Shown: positions 13,268 through 25,396 of the stretch, piece after piece
Numbering within the stretch: position 1 is the first letter of the stretch
Layout of the letters: each line of letters starts with the position of its first letter
DNA from: Streptomyces sp. HUAS 15-9
Lineage (GTDB): Bacteria > Actinomycetota > Actinomycetes > Streptomycetales > Streptomycetaceae
Assembly: GCF_025642155.1 (NCBI RefSeq)
Contig: NZ_CP106798.1
Span: forward strand, 5,208,001-5,272,000
Direction: 5' to 3'
Length of the DNA: 64,000 bases
Program-made: the position numbers and the translations under genes
The notes under the pieces: generated by a model
What the model saw: only the letters and a program-made list of their open reading frames with translations
Databases searched by the model: none
Told to the model about the DNA's origin: nothing

Positions 13268-15568
13268 TCAGTCGCACTCATGTGTCTCGCACCGCAACCG
13301 CCTGCCCGGCCCGAGCACCCGCACCGGTCCCGTGAGTGTCAGGTGCGCCGTGTGCCGTACCTCCGCGCTGGACAACGCCAACCGCAGTTCCAGCGCGCCC
13401 GGTTCGACCACCCGTGAGCCCGAGCGGTCGGTGAAGGCCGAGAGGTCCGTGTGGAAGCGGAAGGTCAGCCGGCGGGACTCGCCGGGGGTCAGGCCCAGTC
13501 GGTGGTAGCCGATCAGGCGTACGTCCGGGCGGGTCACCGATGCCACCGGGTCGTGCAGGTAGAGCTGGACGACCTCCGCGCCGTCGCGGTCGCCGGTGTT
13601 GCGGACCGTGAGGGAGAGGGCGTACGAGCCGTCCGTGCCGATCTCCGGGTCCGTGCCCTCGAAGTCCTCCCACGCGAACGTCGTGTACGAGCGGCCGTGG
13701 CCGAAGGCGTAGAGCGGGGTCGGGTCCAGGTTGCTGACCTCGCCCGCCAGGCCCAGTGGTGGCTGGAGGTACGTCCACGGCTGGCCTCCTGGGACGCGCG
13801 GCACGCTCACCGGGAGCCTTCCCGAGGGGTTGATCCGGCCCGACAGGACGCCCGCCACCGCGGGGCCGCCCTCCTCGCCCGGGAAGAACGCCTGGACCAC
13901 CGCTCCGAGCAGACCGTCCCAGCGGCCCAGTGCGTACGGGCGGCCGGTCAGCAGGACCAGGACGACGGGGACGCCCGTGCCGACCAGCGCGTCCAGGAAA
14001 TCGCCCTGTACTCCCGGGAGTCGGAGGTCCGCCACGTCGCAGCCCTCGCCCGACGTGCCCCGGCCGAACAGCCCGGCCCGGTCGCCCAGGACCGCCACGC
14101 AGACGTCGGCCTCCGACGCCCGAGCCACCGCCTCCTCGAAGCCGGACCGGTCCGGGTCGGACACCCCGCAGCCCTCCGCGAACGTCACCTTGGCGTCCGG
14201 GAGTTCGGTGCGCAGGGAGTCGAGGAGCGTGGGGATGTCCACGCCCGGCGGGACGTCGGGGTGGTGGGTGAGCACGTGGGACGGGAAGGAGTAGCAGCCC
14301 AGCATGGCGAGGGCGTCCGCCGCCCGGGGGCCGACCACCGTGATGCGCGTGCCGGGGGCCAGCGGGAGCAGGCCGTCCGGGTTGTCCAGGAGGACCACGG
14401 ACTCCTCCGCCAGACGGCGGGCCAGGGCGCGGTTCGCCGTCGAGTCCAGGTCGACGGGGCCCGCCGGTTCCGGCTGCCAGTCCTCGTCCAGAAGACCCAG
14501 CTCGCACTTCTGCAGCAGCACCCTGCGGGCCGCGCGGTCCACCAGCGACTCCGGGACCGTTCCGGCGCGTACGGCTGCCACCAGGGGCTTTCCATAGCAC
14601 TTCAGCGTCGGCAGTTCGATGTCGACGCCCGCTTCCAGCGCCCGGTGCGCAGCCTCGGCCGGGCTGCCGGCCACCCTGTGCAGCGTCTCCAGGAAGCCGA
14701 TGCCGAAGTAGTCGGATACCACCGTACCGGTGAATCCCCAGTCATCCCGCAGGAGTTCGGTCAGCAGGCGCGGGTCCGCGGAGGCCGGGACGCCGTCCGT
14801 CTCGTTGTACGCCGCCATCACCGAGCGGGCGCCGCCCTCACGCAGTGCCATCTCGAACGGGGGGAGCGTGACGTCCGCGAACTCCCGCACGCCCGCCCGG
14901 ACGGGGGCCAGGTTGCGGGCGCCCGCCGAGGACGCGTACCCGGCGAAGTGCTTGAGCGTGGCGACGATCCCGGCCGACTCCAGGCCCCGGACGTAGGCCG
15001 TGCCGATCGTGCCGACCAGGTACGGGTCCTCGCCGATCGTCTCCTCCACCCGGCCCCAGCGGGGGTCGCGGACCACGTCCAGGACCGGGGCCAGGCCCTG
15101 GTGGACGCCGACCGAGCGAAGGTCGTGGCCGATGTGCCGGCCCAACTCCTCGACCAGCGGCGGGTCGAAGGTGGCACCCCAGGCCAGCGGCACCGGGTAG
15201 GCCGTCGCGCCCCAGGCCGTGAAGCCCGCCAGACACTCCTCGTGGGCGACCGCGGGGATGCCGAAGCGGCCCGCGGCGGCGATCCGCCGTTGCGCGCGGG
15301 CCAGGGCCTGGGCGCCGAGCGCCGGGTCCACGGGGGCCGTGCCGAATGAGCGGGTCAGCTGGCCGAGGCCGAGGGCGATCAGCTCGGCCCAGTCGTACTC
15401 CGCGGTCATCTCGCGCTGCAGCGGGGCGACTTCCTCGCCGTCCGTGGCCGCGCCCACCCACACGCCGTACAGCTGGGCGGTCTTCTCCTCCAGGGTCATC
15501 CGGGAGAGCAGGTCGGCGACGCGGACGGCGGCGGGCAGGGCGGGGTCGCGCCAAGGAGCGGTGGTCAT
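13268..15568 (-). CDS. Glycoside hydrolase family 3 (beta-xylosidase/beta-glucosidase, BxlA-like)
   Basis: A 766-residue intracellular GH3 enzyme; no signal peptide is seen. It has the (beta/alpha)8 domain with KHFAGYASSAGARNLAP and GARSVMAAYNETDGVPASAD, and the nucleophile Asp in GTVVSDYFGI. The alpha/beta sandwich (GPRAADALAMLGCYSFPSH, DRAGLFGRGTSGEG) and a C-terminal fibronectin-III-like domain follow. It is the last gene of an operon with two permeases and a solute-binding lipoprotein, so it probably hydrolyses the imported oligosaccharide. Length, sequence motifs and context fit BxlA of the xylobiose system better than a GH1 cellobiose system. Specificity is inferred. Confidence 0.92.
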   Translation of the reverse strand: MTTAPWRDPALPAAVRVADLLSRMTLEEKTAQLYGVWVGAATDGEEVAPLQREMTAEYDWAELIALGLGQLTRSFGTAPVDPALGAQALARAQRRIAAAGRFGIPAVAHEECLAGFTAWGATAYPVPLAWGATFDPPLVEELGRHIGHDLRSVGVHQGLAPVLDVVRDPRWGRVEETIGEDPYLVGTIGTAYVRGLESAGIVATLKHFAGYASSAGARNLAPVRAGVREFADVTLPPFEMALREGGARSVMAAYNETDGVPASADPRLLTELLRDDWGFTGTVVSDYFGIGFLETLHRVAGSPAEAAHRALEAGVDIELPTLKCYGKPLVAAVRAGTVPESLVDRAARRVLLQKCELGLLDEDWQPEPAGPVDLDSTANRALARRLAEESVVLLDNPDGLLPLAPGTRITVVGPRAADALAMLGCYSFPSHVLTHHPDVPPGVDIPTLLDSLRTELPDAKVTFAEGCGVSDPDRSGFEEAVARASEADVCVAVLGDRAGLFGRGTSGEGCDVADLRLPGVQGDFLDALVGTGVPVVLVLLTGRPYALGRWDGLLGAVVQAFFPGEEGGPAVAGVLSGRINPSGRLPVSVPRVPGGQPWTYLQPPLGLAGEVSNLDPTPLYAFGHGRSYTTFAWEDFEGTDPEIGTDGSYALSLTVRNTGDRDGAEVVQLYLHDPVASVTRPDVRLIGYHRLGLTPGESRRLTFRFHTDLSAFTDRSGSRVVEPGALELRLALSSAEVRHTAHLTLTGPVRVLGPGRRLRCETHECD

Positions 15569-15593: not shown

Positions 15594-16493
15594 TCACTTG
15601 CCGCCCACGCCCATCAGCCCGCCGACCAGCGCGCGGCGCGCGACCAGGTACACGGCGAAGATCGGGACACCGGAGAGGACGACCGAGGCGAGCAGGGCGG
15701 GGATGTTCACGCCGAACTGGCTCACGTAGTTGAACAGGCCGAGGGTCAGCACACGCGGACCGTCGGACTGGGTGAAGATCAGGGGGAAGAGAAAGCCGTT
15801 CCAGGCCTGGAGGGCGGAGTAGATGACGACCGTGCTGATTCCGCCCTTGGCCAGCGGGACGACCAGCTGGAACAGCATGCGGGTGGGTGAGGCGCCGTCC
15901 AGGGCCATCGCCTCGTACAGGTCCTCCGAGATGTCGCGGAGGGTGCCGGTGAGGATCAGCACCGACACCGGCATGGCGAAGGCGGCCGTCGGCAGGACGA
16001 CCGCGAGGAGGCTGTCGTAGAGGTTCAGCTTCGCGATCATCAGGTAGAGGGGGACCACGACGGCCTGCGCGGGGATCGCCACGCCCAGCAGGAACAGCCG
16101 GAAGGCGGAGCCGGACCAGGCGTTTCGGGTGCGTACGGCGACGTGGGCGAGCGGGACGCACAGGACCAGGACGATCGCCACGACCGCCGCCGCCACGATC
16201 GCCGTGTTCGCCAGGAAGTGGCCGAAGCCGTTGTGCAGGACGGTGTTGTAGTTGTCCAGGGTCGGGTCGGCCGGCGGCTTGAGGGCGTTGTTGCCGAGGG
16301 CCTGGTCCTGACGGGTGAGCGAGGCCGAGATCATCGCGTAGATCGGGACGAGTACGACCGCCAGCCAGATGACCGCGCCCAGGCCGGCCAGGGGGTTGGC
16401 GCGTCTGCTCCAGTGCCCGCGGCGGCGCCGGGCGGGCGGCTTCGCGGGCGGCTCGCCGGTCTTCACGGGGCGGGGCAGCGTATCGTGTGACAC
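15594..16493 (-). CDS. Sugar ABC transporter permease, MalG type (BxlG-like)
   Basis: A 299-residue inner-membrane permease with about six membrane segments (for example LAGLGAVIWLAVVLVPIYAMI and AIVAAAVVAIVLVLCVPLA). It has the conserved cytoplasmic EAA loop, EDLYEAMALDGASPTRMLFQLVVPLAKGG, that contacts the ATPase. It starts 4 bp after the upstream permease and is followed 25 bp later by the GH3 gene. No ATPase gene is present, as is usual for Streptomyces CUT1 systems that share the MsiK ATPase. Confidence 0.93.
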   Translation of the reverse strand: MSHDTLPRPVKTGEPPAKPPARRRRGHWSRRANPLAGLGAVIWLAVVLVPIYAMISASLTRQDQALGNNALKPPADPTLDNYNTVLHNGFGHFLANTAIVAAAVVAIVLVLCVPLAHVAVRTRNAWSGSAFRLFLLGVAIPAQAVVVPLYLMIAKLNLYDSLLAVVLPTAAFAMPVSVLILTGTLRDISEDLYEAMALDGASPTRMLFQLVVPLAKGGISTVVIYSALQAWNGFLFPLIFTQSDGPRVLTLGLFNYVSQFGVNIPALLASVVLSGVPIFAVYLVARRALVGGLMGVGGK

Positions 16494-16497
16494 TCCG

Positions 16498-17364
16498 TCA
16501 CATTCCTTCCCGTGCGCTGCGCATGGCGCCGAAGCCGGTCAGCCGCACCATGACCAGGGAGAGCGCCGTGGCCGCCACCACCAGGAAGGACGCGACGGCG
16601 CTCGCGTAGCCGAAGTCGTAGCTCTTGAAGCCCGCCTCGTACATCAGGTACGGCAGGATCGCCGTGTCGGTGCCGGGGCCGCCCTGGGTGAGGATCAGGA
16701 CGGTCTCGAAGTAGGTCAGCGACCCGACGATCATCAGCACGCTCGACGTCGTCGCCGTGTTGCGCAACTGGGGGAGCGTGATCGAGAAGAACCGGCGGTA
16801 GCGGCCGGCGCCGTCGATCGCGGCCGCCTGGTACAGGACGTCGGGGATCTGGCGGGCCCCGCCCTGGTAGATCAGGGTGTGGAAGGGGATGAACTGCCAG
16901 CCGCCGACGAAGACGATCGCGAGGAAGGCACCGCTGGTCGAGCCGAGTGTGTCCTGCTGGATGATGCCGAAGTTGGGGTCGAGCAGGGCGTAGAAGAGCA
17001 GCGAGATCGCCGTCGAGGACAGCAGGAACGGGACGAAGAAGACCGCGGAGAGGATCGCGCGGTTGCGCTGCCGGCCCGCCGCCCACACGCCCAGCAGCAG
17101 GGAGACGACCGTCTGGAAGGCCCAGCTCACCAGCGTCAGCAGGACGGTCACCGTCAGGGACTGGGTCAGGCGGGGGTCGTCGATCAGCTTCCGCCAGTTG
17201 GCGAGGCCGACCGGCTCCGGGTCGCCCAGGCCGTTCCACTGGGTGAAGGAGAGATAGAAGGCCAGGGCCATGGGGGCGACGGCGAAGAAGGTGAAGAACA
17301 GGACACCCGGGAGGGCCCACGCGGCATGCGGGCGTCCTGCCTTCGTGGCGGTACCGGCGCTCAC
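16498..17364 (-). CDS. Sugar ABC transporter permease, MalF type (BxlF-like)
   Basis: A 288-residue CUT1 permease with six predicted membrane spans ([23 protein letters not shown] first) and the EAA loop [27 protein letters not shown]. The GTG start at 17364 overlaps the stop of the binding-protein gene by 4 bp, so translation is coupled. It pairs with the MalG-type permease to form the membrane channel of the same importer. Confidence 0.93.
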
Positions 17365-18689
17365 TTCAGACCCTGGAGCGCCGACACGAACCGGCTGGGC
17401 GAGGACTTACCCACGAACAGTTTGCTGATCTCGGTGAGCATCGGCGTCGAGACGTCCGGATCCACGGCCTGGTCCCAGCTCAGGGTGAAGGCCGGGGCCT
17501 GCCGCACCATCTGGTACTGGAACTTGGCGAACTCGGGGTTCGGCGAGGCGTCGAGCAGCTTCTCCGCGTTCGAGGTGGTCGGGATGTCGCCGTTGGCGAC
17601 CAGGTCCTTGGCGTACGCCCCGGACGCGCAGTCGCGCAGGAAGGCGATCGCCGCGTCCTTGTTGGACGTACGGGCGTTCACGGACCAGTAGTTGGTGGGG
17701 TTTCCGACGACGTTGCGGATGTCGCCGGCGCCGCCCTCGACCTTCGGGAACGCGCACCAGCCCAGGTTCCGCCTGGCGAAGTCGGGGAACTTGCCGAGCT
17801 GCGTCGAGTACTCCCAGGAGCCCATCAGGTGCATCGCCGCCTTGCCCTTGGCGAAGACCGCGGGCGCGCCGCCGTTGACGTACGACACCGAGCTGAAGCC
17901 CTTCCCGAAGGCGCCGTCGTCGATGAGCTGTTTCACGGTCTCGGCTGCCTTCAGCACCGCCGGGTCGCCCCAGCCGGACGGGTCACCGTTCTTGATCTTG
18001 TCGAAGACCTCGGGCCCGCCGATGCGGTCGGTGAGGTACTCCAGCCACATGAGCTCGGGCCAGATGTCGGCGCCGCCGAGCGCGAAGGGGGTGATCCGGG
18101 CCTTCTTCAGCTTGCCGTTGATGTCCAGCAGCTGGTCGAAGGTGGTGGGCGGCTGGAGCTTGTGCTCGGCGAAGACGGCCTTGTTGTAGAAGAGGATCAC
18201 GGGCTGCATGCCGCGCATGGGGATGCCGTAGTTGCGGCCGCCGAGGCCGCCCGCCGCGAGGACCGAGGGCAGAAAGCCGTCCTTGAGGACCGGGTCGGAC
18301 CCGATGGTGCCGGTGAGGTCGACCAGCTGGTTCGCGTCCTTGTACGCCTTGATCGAGCCGCCGCCCCAGTTGAAGAACACATCGGGCGCGTGGGGCGAGC
18401 CCATCGCCGTGCGCAGCTTGGCGGGGTAGTCGGAGCCGGGCACCTTCTCCAGCTTGATCCTGCCGTTCGCCTTCTTCGCGGCTGCCGAGGCATTGAACCG
18501 GCTGATCGCCTTGACCTGCACCTTCGCCGCGTCGTCGCCGTACACGAAGGCGGTGAGCATGCCGCCGGCACCGGATCCGCCGGAGGAGCCGCAGGCCGAG
18601 AGTCCGGCGGTGAGCAAGGTGGTGGCGCCGGCGCCGAGCATCCAGCGCCTGCTGAAGGTACGCCCGCCGTTGGACGTCTGGGACTCCAT
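17361..18689 (-). CDS. Extracellular sugar-binding lipoprotein (BxlE-like)
   Basis: A 442-residue solute-binding protein. The N-terminus has a twin-arginine-like SRRWMLGAG, a hydrophobic core and the lipobox LSAC (Cys lipidation site), then a Gly/Ser linker. The mature part has the type-1 binding-protein fold ([63 protein letters not shown]). It is the first gene of the binding protein-permease-permease-GH3 operon. CGAA-N3-TTCG operators lie immediately upstream. Xylo-oligosaccharide is the likely ligand from context, not proven by sequence. Confidence 0.92.
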
Positions 18690-18705: not shown

Positions 18706-18742
18706 CGAATGTTTCGATTTGGAGAGCGAATGTTCCGGGAAC
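18706..18742. promoter_or_regulatory. Tandem LacI-type operators (CGAA-N3-TTCG)
   Basis: CGAATGTTTCG at 18706-18716 is a perfect inverted repeat with a 3-base spacer. A second copy, CGAATGTTCCG at 18727-18737 (one mismatch), lies 21 bp away, two helical turns on the same face. An overlapping GTTCC-G-GGAAC palindrome spans 18732-18742. They sit between the lipoprotein start and the divergent LacI gene, matching the CGAAA-like operators of BxlR-type repressors. Confidence 0.75.
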
Positions 18743-18796
18743 GTATGGCCAGGCAGGGGCTTCGTCAAGGGGCCGCGCAGGGATACGATCGCGGGC

Positions 18797-19831
18797 ATGA
18801 AGCCTTCGAAGCCCGCAGAAACGCAGACCGCGACACTTGCCGAAATCGCTCGCGAGGCCGGCGTGTCCGCTCCGACTGTTTCGAAGGTCCTCAACGGCCG
18901 CGCCGATGTCGCCCCCGCCACCCGCACCCGGGTCGAGGAACTGCTGCGCGCCTACGGCTACCGGCGCCGCCGGGCCGAGGCTTCCCGCTCGCCCCTGATC
19001 GACCTGGTCTTCCACGAGCTGGAGAGCGCCTGGGCGATGGAGGTCATCCGGGGCGTGGAGAACGTGGCCCGGGACGCCGGCCTGAGCGTCGTGCTGTCGG
19101 AGTCCGCCGGGCGGCTCACCCCCGGCCGGACCTGGGCCGACCAGGTCGCCGCCCGCCGCCCGCACGGGGTGATCCTGGTCCTGTCCGGGCTCGACGAGTC
19201 CCAGCGCGCCCTGCTGACCAGCAGGTCCATCCCGTTCGTGGTGATGGACCCGGCCGGCGACCCGGGCGCCGACGTGCCGTCCATCGGCGCCACCAACTGG
19301 CAGGGCGGCCTCGCCGCCACCCGGCACCTCGTCGACCTCGGCCACACCCGCATCGGCGCCATCAGCGGACCGTCCCGGATGATGTGCAGCCGCGCCCGGG
19401 TCGACGGCTACCGGGCGGCGCTGGAGACAGCCGGGCTGCCCGTCGACCCGGGCCTGATCAGGACCGGGGACTTCCACCACGAGGCGGGCTACCGGCTCGG
19501 CCTGGAACTGCTGCGCCGCCCGGACCGGCCCACCGCCGTGTTCGCGGGCAACGACCTCCAGGCGCTCGGGCTGTACGAGGCCGCCCGCGAGCTGGGGCTG
19601 CGCATTCCGGAGGACCTGAGCGTGGTCGGCTTCGACGATCTGCCGGTGGCCCGCTGGGTGGGCCCGCCGCTGACGACCGTACGGCAGCCGCTCATGGAGA
19701 TGGCCGAGGCGGCGGCCAGGCTGGTGCTCGACCTGGGGCGCGAGGCGGAGTCCTCGACGGCGACCCGGGTGGAGCTGGCGACGAGCCTGGTGGTGCGCGC
19801 GAGTACTGCGGCGCCGGTGGCCGGAAGTTGA
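18797..19831 (+). CDS. LacI-family repressor (BxlR-like)
   Basis: A 344-residue regulator. N-terminal HTH and hinge: TLAEIAREAGVSAPTVSKVLNG then VAPATRTRVEELLRAYGYR. The periplasmic-binding-protein-like effector domain has DLVFHELESAWAMEVIRGVE, HLVDLGHTRIGAISGP and the C-terminal PEDLSVVGFDDLPVARW. ATG 18797 is chosen because the HTH aligns from there. It is divergent from the sugar-uptake operon, with tandem operators between them, and a third operator lies downstream of its stop before the xylanase. It probably represses both units until xylo-oligosaccharide is present. Confidence 0.92.
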   Translation: MKPSKPAETQTATLAEIAREAGVSAPTVSKVLNGRADVAPATRTRVEELLRAYGYRRRRAEASRSPLIDLVFHELESAWAMEVIRGVENVARDAGLSVVLSESAGRLTPGRTWADQVAARRPHGVILVLSGLDESQRALLTSRSIPFVVMDPAGDPGADVPSIGATNWQGGLAATRHLVDLGHTRIGAISGPSRMMCSRARVDGYRAALETAGLPVDPGLIRTGDFHHEAGYRLGLELLRRPDRPTAVFAGNDLQALGLYEAARELGLRIPEDLSVVGFDDLPVARWVGPPLTTVRQPLMEMAEAAARLVLDLGREAESSTATRVELATSLVVRASTAAPVAGS

Positions 19832-19889
19832 CGTATTGACGGGTGGGGCGGGCGCCCCCACACTCCTCCGCAGTCAGTCGGTTGTTCGA

Positions 19890-19902
19890 CCGAAACTTTC
19901 GG
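19890..19902. promoter_or_regulatory. LacI-type operator upstream of the split xylanase gene
   Basis: CCGAAACTTTCGG is a perfect 13-bp inverted repeat (CGAA-ACT-TTCG core, 19891-19901), the same class as the two operators before the sugar-uptake operon. It directly abuts the GGAGG ribosome site and the start codon at 19913. The IS element now separates this control site from almost all of the xylanase coding sequence. Confidence 0.8.
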
Positions 19903-19912
19903 AGGTTCCGCA

Positions 19913-19948
19913 ATGAGAAGAACTCCCGCAACGAGAACGACTCTGAGA
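19913..19948 (+). pseudogene. 5' fragment of GH10 xylanase gene (start and first 12 codons)
   Basis: ATG 19913, seven bases after GGAGG (19901-19905), encodes MRRTPATRTTLR, the basic start of a signal peptide. The frame then runs into the IS and stops at GHLI. Joining base 19948 directly to 21052 (keeping one copy of the duplicated CTGAGA) continues in frame with TGLPLASLVTGLALLL and a typical AHA cleavage site. This is therefore the original start of the downstream xylanase. Confidence 0.85.
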
Positions 19949-21045
19949 GGGCATTTGATCTAGGCGAATTGCCCTTTCTATTCTAGTAAGTCCCTCGCCA
20001 GGTTGGTGTCGTCTCGTCCGTTATGCGCTTGGCGAGGTTGTCGATCGAGGCGACGTGGATCATGGCCTCGGAGCTGGCGGGAAGGGTCTCGTAATCGCGA
20101 GAAAGGCGCCGGTGCAACATAAGCCAACCCAGGCTTCGCTCGACTACCCAGCGTCTTTTGACAACGTGAAAGCCGCGAACTCCGGGGTTTCTGTTGACGA
20201 CTTCGACGTCGATTCCGAGACGTGCGCCGTGCTCGATGACGGCGTTCTTGAAGCCGGTGTCGACCCAGCTCTTGGCGATGGTTGGATACGTCTTCTTGGC
20301 TTGGTCGAGAAGACGTATTCCTACGGCGTTCTCGGAGAGGCTCGCGGCGGTGACAGTCACGGCGAGGATGAGTCCGATCGTATCGGTGAGTATGCCTCGC
20401 TTGCGGCCGACGATCTTCTTGGCGGCGTCCGTTCCCTGGCTGGTCAGGGGCACGTTGGTGGAGGTCTTCACGCTCTGGGTGTCGATGACGGACCCTGTGG
20501 GTTCGGGCTTGCGCCCTTCCTTCACGCGGGCGAGCCCGGTCAGGTCGTAGTTGAGCTGGGCGAGGATTCCCTCATCGCGCCAGGCGGCATAGTAGGCGTA
20601 GACGGTGCCGTAGTTCGGGAAGTCGTGTGGGAGGTATTTCCAGGGGATTCCCGTGCGGTTGATGTAGAGGAGTGCGTTGAATACGTCGCGCAGGTCGACC
20701 TTGGTAAGCTGCCCGGTGGGTCTGCGGTCGAGCCGGGCTTTTCTCCAGGCCGTCAACGTCGGCTCGATTAGGGCCCATCGGGCGTCGGAAAGGTCGCTGG
20801 GGTACGGCTTCCGCTGGCTCACGTTCCAGAGGGATCATGGGTGTGACGGAAGATCGGGTTCCGGTGATCATCGGGCGGTTCCGTGCCATCTCTACGTCAG
20901 ACACGCTTCGAGGATCGAAGCCGAGCGAAACGGGCGGGCAGGTCCGGAAGTCTTGAAGTGATGAAGCGCATTGATCCGCCGAAAGACCTCAAACTGACAC
21001 AGCGACAGAACTCGCATACCGGCATGAGGCATACCTGAACGCCCA
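19949..21045 (-). mobile_element. IS5-family insertion sequence inside the xylanase gene
   Basis: About 1.1 kb. CTGAGA occurs on both sides (19943-19948 and 21046-21051), a 6-bp target duplication. The left end reads GGGCATTTGATCTAGGC inward and the right end, on the other strand, reads GGGCGTTCAGGTATGCC after one extra base, giving imperfect terminal inverted repeats. It carries one IS5-type transposase on the minus strand and about 220 bp of non-coding sequence upstream of it. The exact outer base of the right end is uncertain by one position. Removing the element and one repeat copy rebuilds the xylanase frame exactly. Confidence 0.85.
19983..20822 (-). CDS. IS5-family DDE transposase
   Basis: A 279-residue transposase that looks intact. 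It opens with the IS5-type RKPYPSDLSDARWALIEP and has the first catalytic Asp in GSVIDTQSVKTS, the second in SWVDTGFKN, and the Glu in KRRWVVERSLGWLM with the downstream R and K helix. GTG 20822 is the start. It is the only gene in the IS. An undamaged reading frame suggests a fairly recent insertion. Confidence 0.93.
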   Translation of the reverse strand: MSQRKPYPSDLSDARWALIEPTLTAWRKARLDRRPTGQLTKVDLRDVFNALLYINRTGIPWKYLPHDFPNYGTVYAYYAAWRDEGILAQLNYDLTGLARVKEGRKPEPTGSVIDTQSVKTSTNVPLTSQGTDAAKKIVGRKRGILTDTIGLILAVTVTAASLSENAVGIRLLDQAKKTYPTIAKSWVDTGFKNAVIEHGARLGIDVEVVNRNPGVRGFHVVKRRWVVERSLGWLMLHRRLSRDYETLPASSEAMIHVASIDNLAKRITDETTPTWRGTY

Positions 21046-21051
21046 CTGAGA

Positions 21052-22383
21052 ACCGGCTTACCCCTGGCGTCCCTCGTGACCGGGCTCGCCCTGCTGCTCA
21101 CGGCACCCGCGGCGCACGCCGCCGACACCCCGCTGCGCGATCTCGCCGCCGCCGAGGGCAAGGTCATCGGCACGGCGGTCACCGGCTCCAAGCTCACCGG
21201 TACCTATGGCGACGTAGCCGGGGCGCAGTTCGGCTCGCTCACCCCCGGCAACGCCATGAAGTGGGGCACGGTCGAGCCGGCCCAGGGCTCCTTCAACTGG
21301 GCCGAGGCCGACCAGATCGTCGCCTTCGCGCAGGCCCACCATCAGCAGGTGCGCGGCCACACCCTGGTCTGGCACAGCCAGAACCCGAGCTGGCTGACCA
21401 ACGGCAGCTGGACGTCCGCCCAGCTGAGCGGCCTGCTGCAGAACCACATCAGCACCGAGGTCACCCGCTACAAGGGCAAGGTCGCCGCCTGGGACGTGGT
21501 CAACGAGCCCTTCAACGAGGACGGCACCCACCGCTCGACGCTCTGGTACGACGGCCTCGGCTCCGGCTACATCGCCAGCGCCCTGACCTGGGCGCACGCC
21601 GCCGACCCCGACGCCAAGCTGTACATCAACGACTACAACGTCGAGGGCGTCAACGCGAAGAGCACCGCCCTGTACAACCTGGTCAAGTCCCTGAAGGCGC
21701 AGGGGGTTCCGATCGACGGGGTGGGCCTGCAGGCGCATCTGATCCTCGGCCAGATCCCGGCCACGCTCCAGCAGAACGTCCAGCGCTTCGCCGACCTGGG
21801 CGTGGACGTGGCGATCACCGAGCTGGACGTACGGATGGCGCTGCCTTCGGACAGCACGAAGCTGGCCCAGCAGGCCGCCGACTACAAGTCGGTCGTCGCC
21901 GCCTGCGTGGCCGTGACCCGCTGCGTCAATGTCACCGTGTGGGGCTTCACCGACTCCGACTCCTGGGTGCCGAGCACCTTCCCGGGGTACGGGGCGGCGA
22001 CGCCGTACGACGAGAACTACGCGCCGAAACCGGCGTACTACGGGATCGCCGAGGCCCTCGGCGGCGGCACGACCACACCGCCTCCGACCGGCGCCTGCGC
22101 GGCGACGTACAGCGTGACCAGCCAGTGGAACACCGGGTTCACCGGGCAGGTGCGGATCTCCTGCTCCGGTGCCTCGCTGTCGTCCTGGAAGGCGAGCTGG
22201 ACGTACGGTGCGGGCCAGCGGATCACCCAGGCGTGGAACGCCACCTGTACCCAGTCGGGCGCGGCGGTCTCGTGCGTGAACGCCTCGTACAACGGATCGG
22301 TTCCGGACGGCGGTTCGGTGACGTTCGGATTCAACGCGTCGTGGAGCGGCGGCAATCCGGTGCCCACGGTGACGCTGGGCTGA
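21052..22383 (+). pseudogene. GH10 endo-1,4-beta-xylanase with C-terminal CBM2, separated from its start by an IS
   Basis: About 443 codons without their own start. The region begins with the rest of a signal peptide (LASLVTGLALLLTAPAAHA), then a GH10 barrel with the acid/base Glu in AWDVVNEPFNEDG and the nucleophile Glu in VAITELDVRMAL. A Gly/Thr/Pro linker leads to a family 2 cellulose-binding module (CAATYSVTSQWNTGF, VTFGFNASWSGG). The domains are complete and undecayed. A GTG at 21076 could in principle start a short product, but it lacks a ribosome site and the basic part of the signal peptide. Secretion and regulated expression are probably lost. Confidence 0.88.
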
Positions 22384-24103: not shown

Positions 24104-24250
24104 TTGACATCCTCTCCCTCTCTCAGGAAAGGGAGATTCCAACCTGGGTGGGTTGAAGTTCACGGACGCTCGACCGCTGGTTCGGCAGTGTCGTCCCCCC
24201 GGCACGGGCCGAGGGCCCGGGGCGGCTTTCGCCGTCCTGTCCTGCCGCGA
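24104..24250 (-). ncRNA. Probable omega-RNA (TnpB guide RNA) scaffold region
   Basis: TnpB proteins use an RNA made from the 3' end of their gene and the transposon right end, with the guide taken from the flank. Here the tnpB 3' end merges into the right-end hairpin and GGATGTCAA. The adjoining flank AGCCCACCATGCAACG (minus strand, 24088-24103) would be the guide. Extent and expression are inferred from the family only. Confidence 0.4.
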
Positions 24251-25396
24251 CGTTGGTTGCTGCGTTGGTGTCGGCGTTGCAGGTGAAGCCGCAGACGGTG
24301 CAGACGAACTCGGCTTGGCTCTTGCGCGAGTTCTTGTCGATCCATCCGCAAGCGCTGCAACGCAGCGAGGTGTACGGGGCGGGTATGTCCTGGACCCGCC
24401 CCGGGGCCTTGTGCTCGGTACGTTGACGTAGCAGGCCCCAGCCCTGGGCCAAGATCGCCTTGTTCAACCCGGCCTTCTGGCGCACTCGGTTGCCGGGCCG
24501 GTCGACAGTCCCCCTGGCTGACGCAGTCATGTTCTTGATGTTCAGCTTCTCGAACCGGATCAGGTCGTAGTCGCGGGCGAGCATGCCGCTGGTCTTCTCG
24601 CACCAGTCCTTGCGACGGTTCGCCTCACGGGTCTTGAGCTTGCAGACCTTCGCGTACTCCGCCGCCTTCCGCGCACTGCCTTTCGGGGCGCGTGCGGCGC
24701 GGCGCTGATGCTTTCGGATCTGAGCACGTTCCCTGGCCGTGAGCTGAGGGCAGTTCAGCCTTCGGCCGTCCGACAGGGCGGCGGTGACTCAACGCCCCGG
24801 TCGATCCCGATGACCTGTCCCGTTCCCGGTGGGCCGATCGGCGAGGGGATTCGCGCGAAGGCCACGTGCCACTGACCGCTGCGGAATGTGACCCGGAACG
24901 TCTTCGCCGCCGGAAGTTCGGGCCGGGTGAGACGGAAACGCACCCATCCGCGGCCGTGTACCTTGACGTGGGCCCGGCGTCGGTTGAGCTTCTGTACCAC
25001 TACCGAGCGGCCCATGACCTGCTTGCCGGTCTTCGGATTGAGCATCGGCGTGCGGTCGGTGTTGAACTCCGGCACCCGGTCGGTGCCGATGACACGGAAG
25101 CCTTCATGCCGGTGTTTCTTCCGCCATGTCGGCTCGCCGAAGCCCGACGTGAACCTCGCGGCTTTGGCTCGGGCGAAGTCCTGCAACGCCTGCTGCTGCA
25201 CATCGGCGTTTCCGTCCCGCAGCCAATCGTTCTCGGCTCGTGCTTCGGTGAGTTGGCGGCACTGCTCGGCAAAGCCCGGTGCGGGCTTTCTCCCGATCCT
25301 CCAATGAGAGTGCTGCTCAACCGCGAGATTCCAGACGTACCGCGCGTGCGCGCAGTGTTGGAGCATCTGCTGCTCCTGCTGCGGCGTCGGGTACAT
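24123..25396 (-). pseudogene. tnpB: tnpB (RNA-guided nuclease, OrfB_IS605), one-base frameshift
   Basis: The N-terminal part runs from MYPTPQQEQQML to the RuvC-I motif GIDRGVE, where the frame breaks near 24787. Inserting one G (GAG|TCACC to GAGGTCACC) continues with VTAALSDGRRLN and a basic helix into the C-terminal part: RuvC-II Glu in IRFEKLNIKNM, a CSACG...CTVCG zinc finger and RuvC-III Asp in ADTNAATNV. All catalytic residues survive, so the gene is one base from functional. The usual leading MKSRF is represented by KSRFH without an upstream ATG. Confidence 0.85.

Follow-up and report, generated by a model that had tools for sequence, protein, structure and literature searches.

The question raised by this locus is whether a Streptomyces strain whose xylanase gene has been entered by an insertion sequence can still secrete the enzyme. 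The window, a stretch of 64,000 nucleotides, corresponds to positions 5208001-5272000 of the main contig of Streptomyces sp. HUAS 15-9 (genome 9.6 Mb, 3 contigs, completeness rated 100%). From the sequence and its ORFs, a gene for a GH10 xylanase with a CBM2 module runs from an ATG at 19913-19915 to a stop codon ending at 22383, with codon 12 broken by the IS. A GGAGG ribosome-binding site (19901-19905, plus strand) precedes the ATG, and the 20 bases 5' of this start form a duplex of -10.7 kcal/mol with the 16S tail. The 5' piece of the gene (19913-19946, plus strand) contains 11 complete codons and the first base of the twelfth; it translates as MRRTPATRTTLRGHLI and then meets a TAG at 19961-19963 inside the IS, giving 16 codons in total. 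The remainder (21050-22383, plus strand) is in phase and encodes the rest of the signal peptide, the GH10 and CBM2 domains and the stop. Both domains score over their Pfam cut-offs (PF00331, 386.7 bits; PF00553, 92.5 bits), and residues E152 and E257 of the GH10 fragment, in fragment numbering, are invariant in six aligned sequences; we take these to be the catalytic glutamates. A preliminary description of this DNA had placed the operator, ribosome site, start, IS and in-phase remainder at these positions and had called the transposase and the xylanase domains intact, and both points are borne out, the former on re-reading of the sequence and the latter by the 279-aa transposase ORF with its NF033580 match and by the two Pfam domains.

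The element is an IS5-family member of 1100 bp (19947-21046, minus strand), delimited by comparison of its genome copies and their flanks. Its ends are GAGGGC and GCCCAC, and its terminal repeats, GAGGGCATT and GTGGGCGTT, are imperfect (7 of 9 bases equal). The intact transposase gene (279 aa; 19983-20822, minus strand) matches PF13340 and PF01609 and scores 171.8 bits against the IS-family HMM NF033580, for which the cut-off is 110. Nine full-length, near-identical copies are present in the genome, the xylanase copy included; their alignment has eight variable columns, and the xylanase copy equals the copy L002 at all eight. Matching TNA flanks (TGA or TCA) surround 8 of the 9 copies; of 84 ways to arrange the middle bases, 1 reaches this result. 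The exception, L005 (TTA/TGA), has a right flank identical to that of L008, a pattern as after recombination. The HMM score, the nine copies and the TNA flanks together indicate that the insertion is not a chance resemblance.

At the xylanase, the target-site duplication is the TGA at 19944-19946 on the left and at 21047-21049 on the right, as seen from the comparison of flanks. The site had been read earlier as flanked by CTGAGA direct repeats. Those letters do stand on both sides and the junction is unchanged, but the true duplication is of 3 bp, not 6: the left C and the right GA belong to the host, and their counterparts on the opposite sides are part of the ends of the element. Given the flanks of the nine copies and the TGA flanks of ISScl1, an IS5-like element of Streptomyces clavuligerus pSCL2 whose name is that of the record annotation, CTGAGA amounts to a 3-bp duplication plus three chance letters. 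The element is a candidate member of the IS5 subgroup with TNA duplications, the IS1031/ISL2-like one. When 392 genomes of the genus were searched, this one counted and at most two candidates scored in each, the best near-full copy elsewhere was in the genome G184 (92% identical, 1056 of 1103 bases), which also has a shorter piece with 94% identity over 677 bases.

Several peculiarities of these elements were observed in passing. Alignment columns 759-764 (about 20705-20707 of the window) show six variants among the nine otherwise near-identical copies; the transposase frame is shifted in L004 and L005, and L006 has three extra bases. This spot reflects either real hypervariability or a sequencing or polishing error. 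The copy L006 (C1:4221822-4222917) seems to split a second gene, since long frames end and begin at the edges of the IS; by eye, the gene would encode a secreted beta-propeller-like protein with repeats of the cell-wall-binding type. The right flanks of L005, L008 and L009 begin with GAGGTCGTTTT, which itself resembles an IS5-type end. Close to the GAGGTCGTTTT flanks, at C1:5923538-5927166 and C1:9222516-9227615, there are related pieces with 67-70% identity, which suggests nested or adjacent IS elements in these surroundings. Elsewhere in the window, a TnpB-like gene of the IS200/IS605 type (24123-25396, minus strand) lies in two ORFs, one matching the N-terminal HTH_OrfB and the other the C-terminal Cas12f1-like TNB.

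Relatives show what the gene looks like when uninterrupted. Our sample consisted of the best 80 of 221 confirmed xylanase loci, 78 from Streptomyces and two from entries named "Actinobacteria bacterium". The operator CGAAACTTTCG is found exactly, within 300 bp upstream of the xylanase, in all 80 loci; a LacI homologue (87.6-96.1% identity) is likewise found in 80 of 80, and 76 of them have the LCP gene on the downstream side. A script recognised an ATG start accompanied by an SD-like stretch in 75 of the 80; in the other five (L056, L090, L097, L107 and L119), a GTG start is needed or the start escaped the rule of the script. Three strains, NPDC050625, NPDC001406 and NPDC001435 (P0002-P0004), have proteins that are 95% identical and 455 aa long, the length expected of the IS-free gene. 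When they are aligned with the right piece, exactly 12 residues are left over at the N-terminus, as many as the left piece supplies, and their first four residues are those of the left piece. The uninterrupted allele supposed at the outset is thus what relatives carry, with the IS at 0 of 80 loci and these three proteins of full length. A further protein, P0005 (JGI, 96%), is called at 435 aa and starts at the residue of GTG 21076, which may be a gene-calling choice only. As a separate observation, P0001 (ENA data) is a xylanase of 649 aa in which most of the catalytic domain is repeated in tandem.

One rival account holds that the gene still works: a transcript that crosses the IS or starts inside it would be translated from GTG 21076 or from a rarer start, and the shortened hydrophobic start would still serve for export. 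We consider this improbable. The right-hand frame starts within the IS and stays open over 451 codons to the stop at 22383, and GTG 21076 is the first common in-phase start after the element; its product would keep the hydrophobic core and the cleavage motif of the signal peptide but would have no positively charged n-region. The preliminary description had allowed for an independent start before 21076, and no good ribosome site is found at GTG 21076, where pairing with the 16S tail is -2.4 kcal/mol against a background mean of -4.85 (sd 2.78) for the 20 bases before codons of the xylanase gene. Some rarer in-phase starts, such as CTG 21046 (-5.6) and ATC 21166 (-7.7), have average pairing, close to this background, and they speak for a working gene, as does the short P0005 call if it is more than a choice of the gene caller. 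Against it, the transposase is transcribed in the opposite direction. A scan of 19800-21150 for sigma-70 promoters returned no site, but chance alone would give 0.1, which makes the scan powerless either way; on the sequence, re-initiation or a promoter carried by the IS is conceivable. Since the remainder has neither a good ribosome site nor a charged signal-peptide start, we infer that no secreted GH10 enzyme is made.

Two further accounts can be weighed against a lasting loss. Precise excision of the IS between the CTGAGA copies in some cells would restore the enzyme and make the insertion a reversible switch; CTGAGA does occur to the left and to the right, and the two sides agree in reading phase. 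However, the duplication proper is of 3 bp, no locus among the 80 relatives has the IS at this site, and precise excision of IS5-like elements is generally very rare. Such a switch is very unlikely, and the escape by precise excision that the first reading had left to the strain is unsupported; the six-base repeat is partly coincidence. The other account is an assembly artefact in which a repeated element was misplaced at the xylanase site. Nine near-identical copies could have invited such an error, and the odd variation at one spot of the element could be a polishing error, but the TGA matches on both sides of the IS, the regulator and xylanase adjoin in relatives, and the assembly is of 3 contigs and rated complete. 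We regard misplacement, too, as highly improbable.

With a view to dating the event, the gene was compared for decay with the DNA of the 80 relatives' loci, the nearest strains (P0002-P0004) being represented as proteins only. The xylanase has 3 private substitutions (mean in the relatives, 2.54), a number that 35 of the 80 relatives equal or exceed; two of the three (columns at least 95% conserved) are equalled or exceeded in number by 14 of 80. The nearest-neighbour dN/dS is 0.156; the median for the 80 relatives is 0.159. Private substitutions and dN/dS thus show no decay in the sequence. On its own branch, with L053 as sister and L061 as outgroup, nonsynonymous and synonymous changes number 16:28 against 6:30 in the sister (p = 0.077); counts vary in the other 17 triplets shown. 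This triplet leans away from a recent event. The insertion had been held to be recent, and the near-identical IS copies and the open frame are consistent with that, but no date can be derived and the one triplet leans the other way.

The genes that would serve the enzyme appear to be in place. Upstream lies a LacI-family regulator gene (18719-19831, plus strand; Pfam LacI and Peripla_BP_3, with homologues), BxlR-like by context, whose true start is probably downstream of the listed TTG. On the other side of it, on the minus strand, a sugar-binding lipoprotein gene (17361-18689; SBP_bac_1) matches PDB 3vxb, which we take to be BxlE, with E 9.1e-238. It is followed by two permease-like ORFs (16498-17364 and 15594-16493; together 15594-17364, minus strand), presumably BxlF and BxlG by gene order, and by a BxlA-like GH3 beta-xylosidase/alpha-L-arabinosidase gene (13268-15568, minus strand; NF052329, 1152.5 bits, cut-off 1050). 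The 3vxb match and the GH3 assignment agree with the earlier view that uptake of xylo-oligosaccharides is kept. Within the upstream DNA covered (at most 4 kb, and less at some loci), 20 of the 80 relatives show a BxlE homologue. What stays constant is therefore the pair of regulator and xylanase, not the whole cluster.

The operator CGAAACTTTCG (19891-19901), a palindrome, begins 22 bp before the ATG and is identified by its sequence, its conservation and PMC4743123, which gives it as the binding site of BxlR, a xylobiose-responsive repressor of S. thermoviolaceus, and relates it to S. lividans xylan genes. According to PMC12772271, BxlR of SirexAA-E is believed to control a GH10 and a GH11 by way of a similar motif, CGAANNTTTCG. 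With CGAAACTTTCG present before it, the xylanase gene would be a member of a BxlR regulon, for which binding by the regulator and release by xylobiose are predicted. In the window, CGAAANTTTCG has 1 match (shuffled sequences give 0.01 on average), and in the genome it occurs at five places, the xylanase site among them. One of these, CGAAAATTTCG at C1:4030920-4030930 (L152), was observed 155 bp upstream of where a gene presumably starts that encodes a sugar-ABC ATPase of the UgpC/MalK/SugC type, which we assume to be MsiK-like; this gene may possibly share the regulon of the xylanase. At the remaining three places, inspection of nearby ORFs revealed no link to xylan genes.

Among the recognised endoxylanase families, the interrupted gene is the one GH10 of its own genome, and neither a GH11 nor a GH8 was found there. 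The genotype of an importer without an endoxylanase is judged by these three families, which leaves room for others with side activity on xylan, e.g. GH5. There is also one GH30 (C1:6181745), whose best solved match, 5ngk (E 1.8e-68), is labelled a glucosylceramidase, with weaker matches to AcXbh30A (7n6h, E 3.6e-30), presumably a xylan-acting GH30, and to a GH30 xylanase (7ncx, E 6e-23). By these matches, action of the GH30 on xylan is possible, but is not the first guess; because its specificity is uncertain, growth on xylan is still conceivable. Also noticed was a GH43-like gene whose start resembles a signal peptide (L151; C1:820992-821892, minus strand); it is matched in two frames, with profile positions 1-80 and 80-288 in separate pieces, and it is either frameshifted or mis-sequenced.

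Neither GH10 nor GH11 was found in 7 of 24 same-genus relatives, so the lack of both is not rare by itself. The four of these 24 with a close binding protein (78-87%; G003, G014, G017 and G024) all have GH10 and GH11. Another, G008, has neither, yet carries a BxlE-like protein (E <= 1e-100, 52%). In this small sample, it is unusual to have retained the importer but neither GH10 nor GH11. That the interrupted gene is the only GH10 and that GH11 is absent could not have been known to the preliminary description, and both facts add to the reading of a loss.

Insertion of an IS5-family member into codon 12 has very probably abolished the function of the GH10 xylanase, as judged from the sequence, and the claim that the secreted enzyme is lost stands as the most likely outcome. 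A member of an IS5-family population that had multiplied in the genome would have transposed into codon 12, duplicating TGA, and translation from the native ATG would stop after 16 codons, within the IS. The mechanism is ordinary in kind and cleanly documented. The strain would itself cut little or no xylan, and since the regulator, operator, binding protein and xylosidase remain, xylo-oligosaccharides freed by others should be usable. The predicted phenotype is scant or no clearing of xylan, with growth on xylobiose. It is tempting, though doubtful, to go further and see in the strain a natural xylan freeloader, in which a spreading IS took the only recognised endoxylanase while uptake was kept and neighbours' fragments are eaten, the GH43 gene at C1:820992-821892 being frameshifted too unless that is a sequencing error.

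The locus offers a clean and testable natural knockout of the only recognised GH10/GH11-type xylanase, with the uptake and regulatory half retained, in which one can ask whether loss of secreted enzymes precedes loss of importers. There is a practical caution as well: a gene caller could report here a "xylanase" of 435 aa that is probably not made.

No IS-interrupted Streptomyces xylanase was found among the titles and abstract openings listed from the open-licence literature. Three known systems come closest. ISScl1 is 82.6% identical to the xylanase IS over 90% of the latter, about 17% diverged. The two are alike in their GAGGGC start, their TGA flanks and a single transposase gene that has the same orientation with respect to the ends; they differ in that the terminal 10 bases are perfectly inverted in ISScl1, but imperfectly so here. 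With the BxlR/bxlEFGA regulon, as presented in PMC4743123 and PMC12772271, the locus shares CGAAACTTTCG, the LacI regulator, the BxlE-type protein, the GH3 xylosidase and the GH10 enzyme; unlike in that regulon, the xylanase here adjoins the regulator and is interrupted. SirexAA-E has both a GH10 and a GH11 enzyme believed to be controlled by BxlR (PMC12772271); in the present genome there is neither an intact GH10 nor a GH11. For the loss itself, the nearest parallel comes from cultures of Thermobacillus xylanilyticus (PMC8922903). There, the change is a population shift in culture, whereas here it is an IS insertion read in the sequence of one genome; common to both is the loss of the secreted xylanase, a shared good that in those cultures was lost by cheating.
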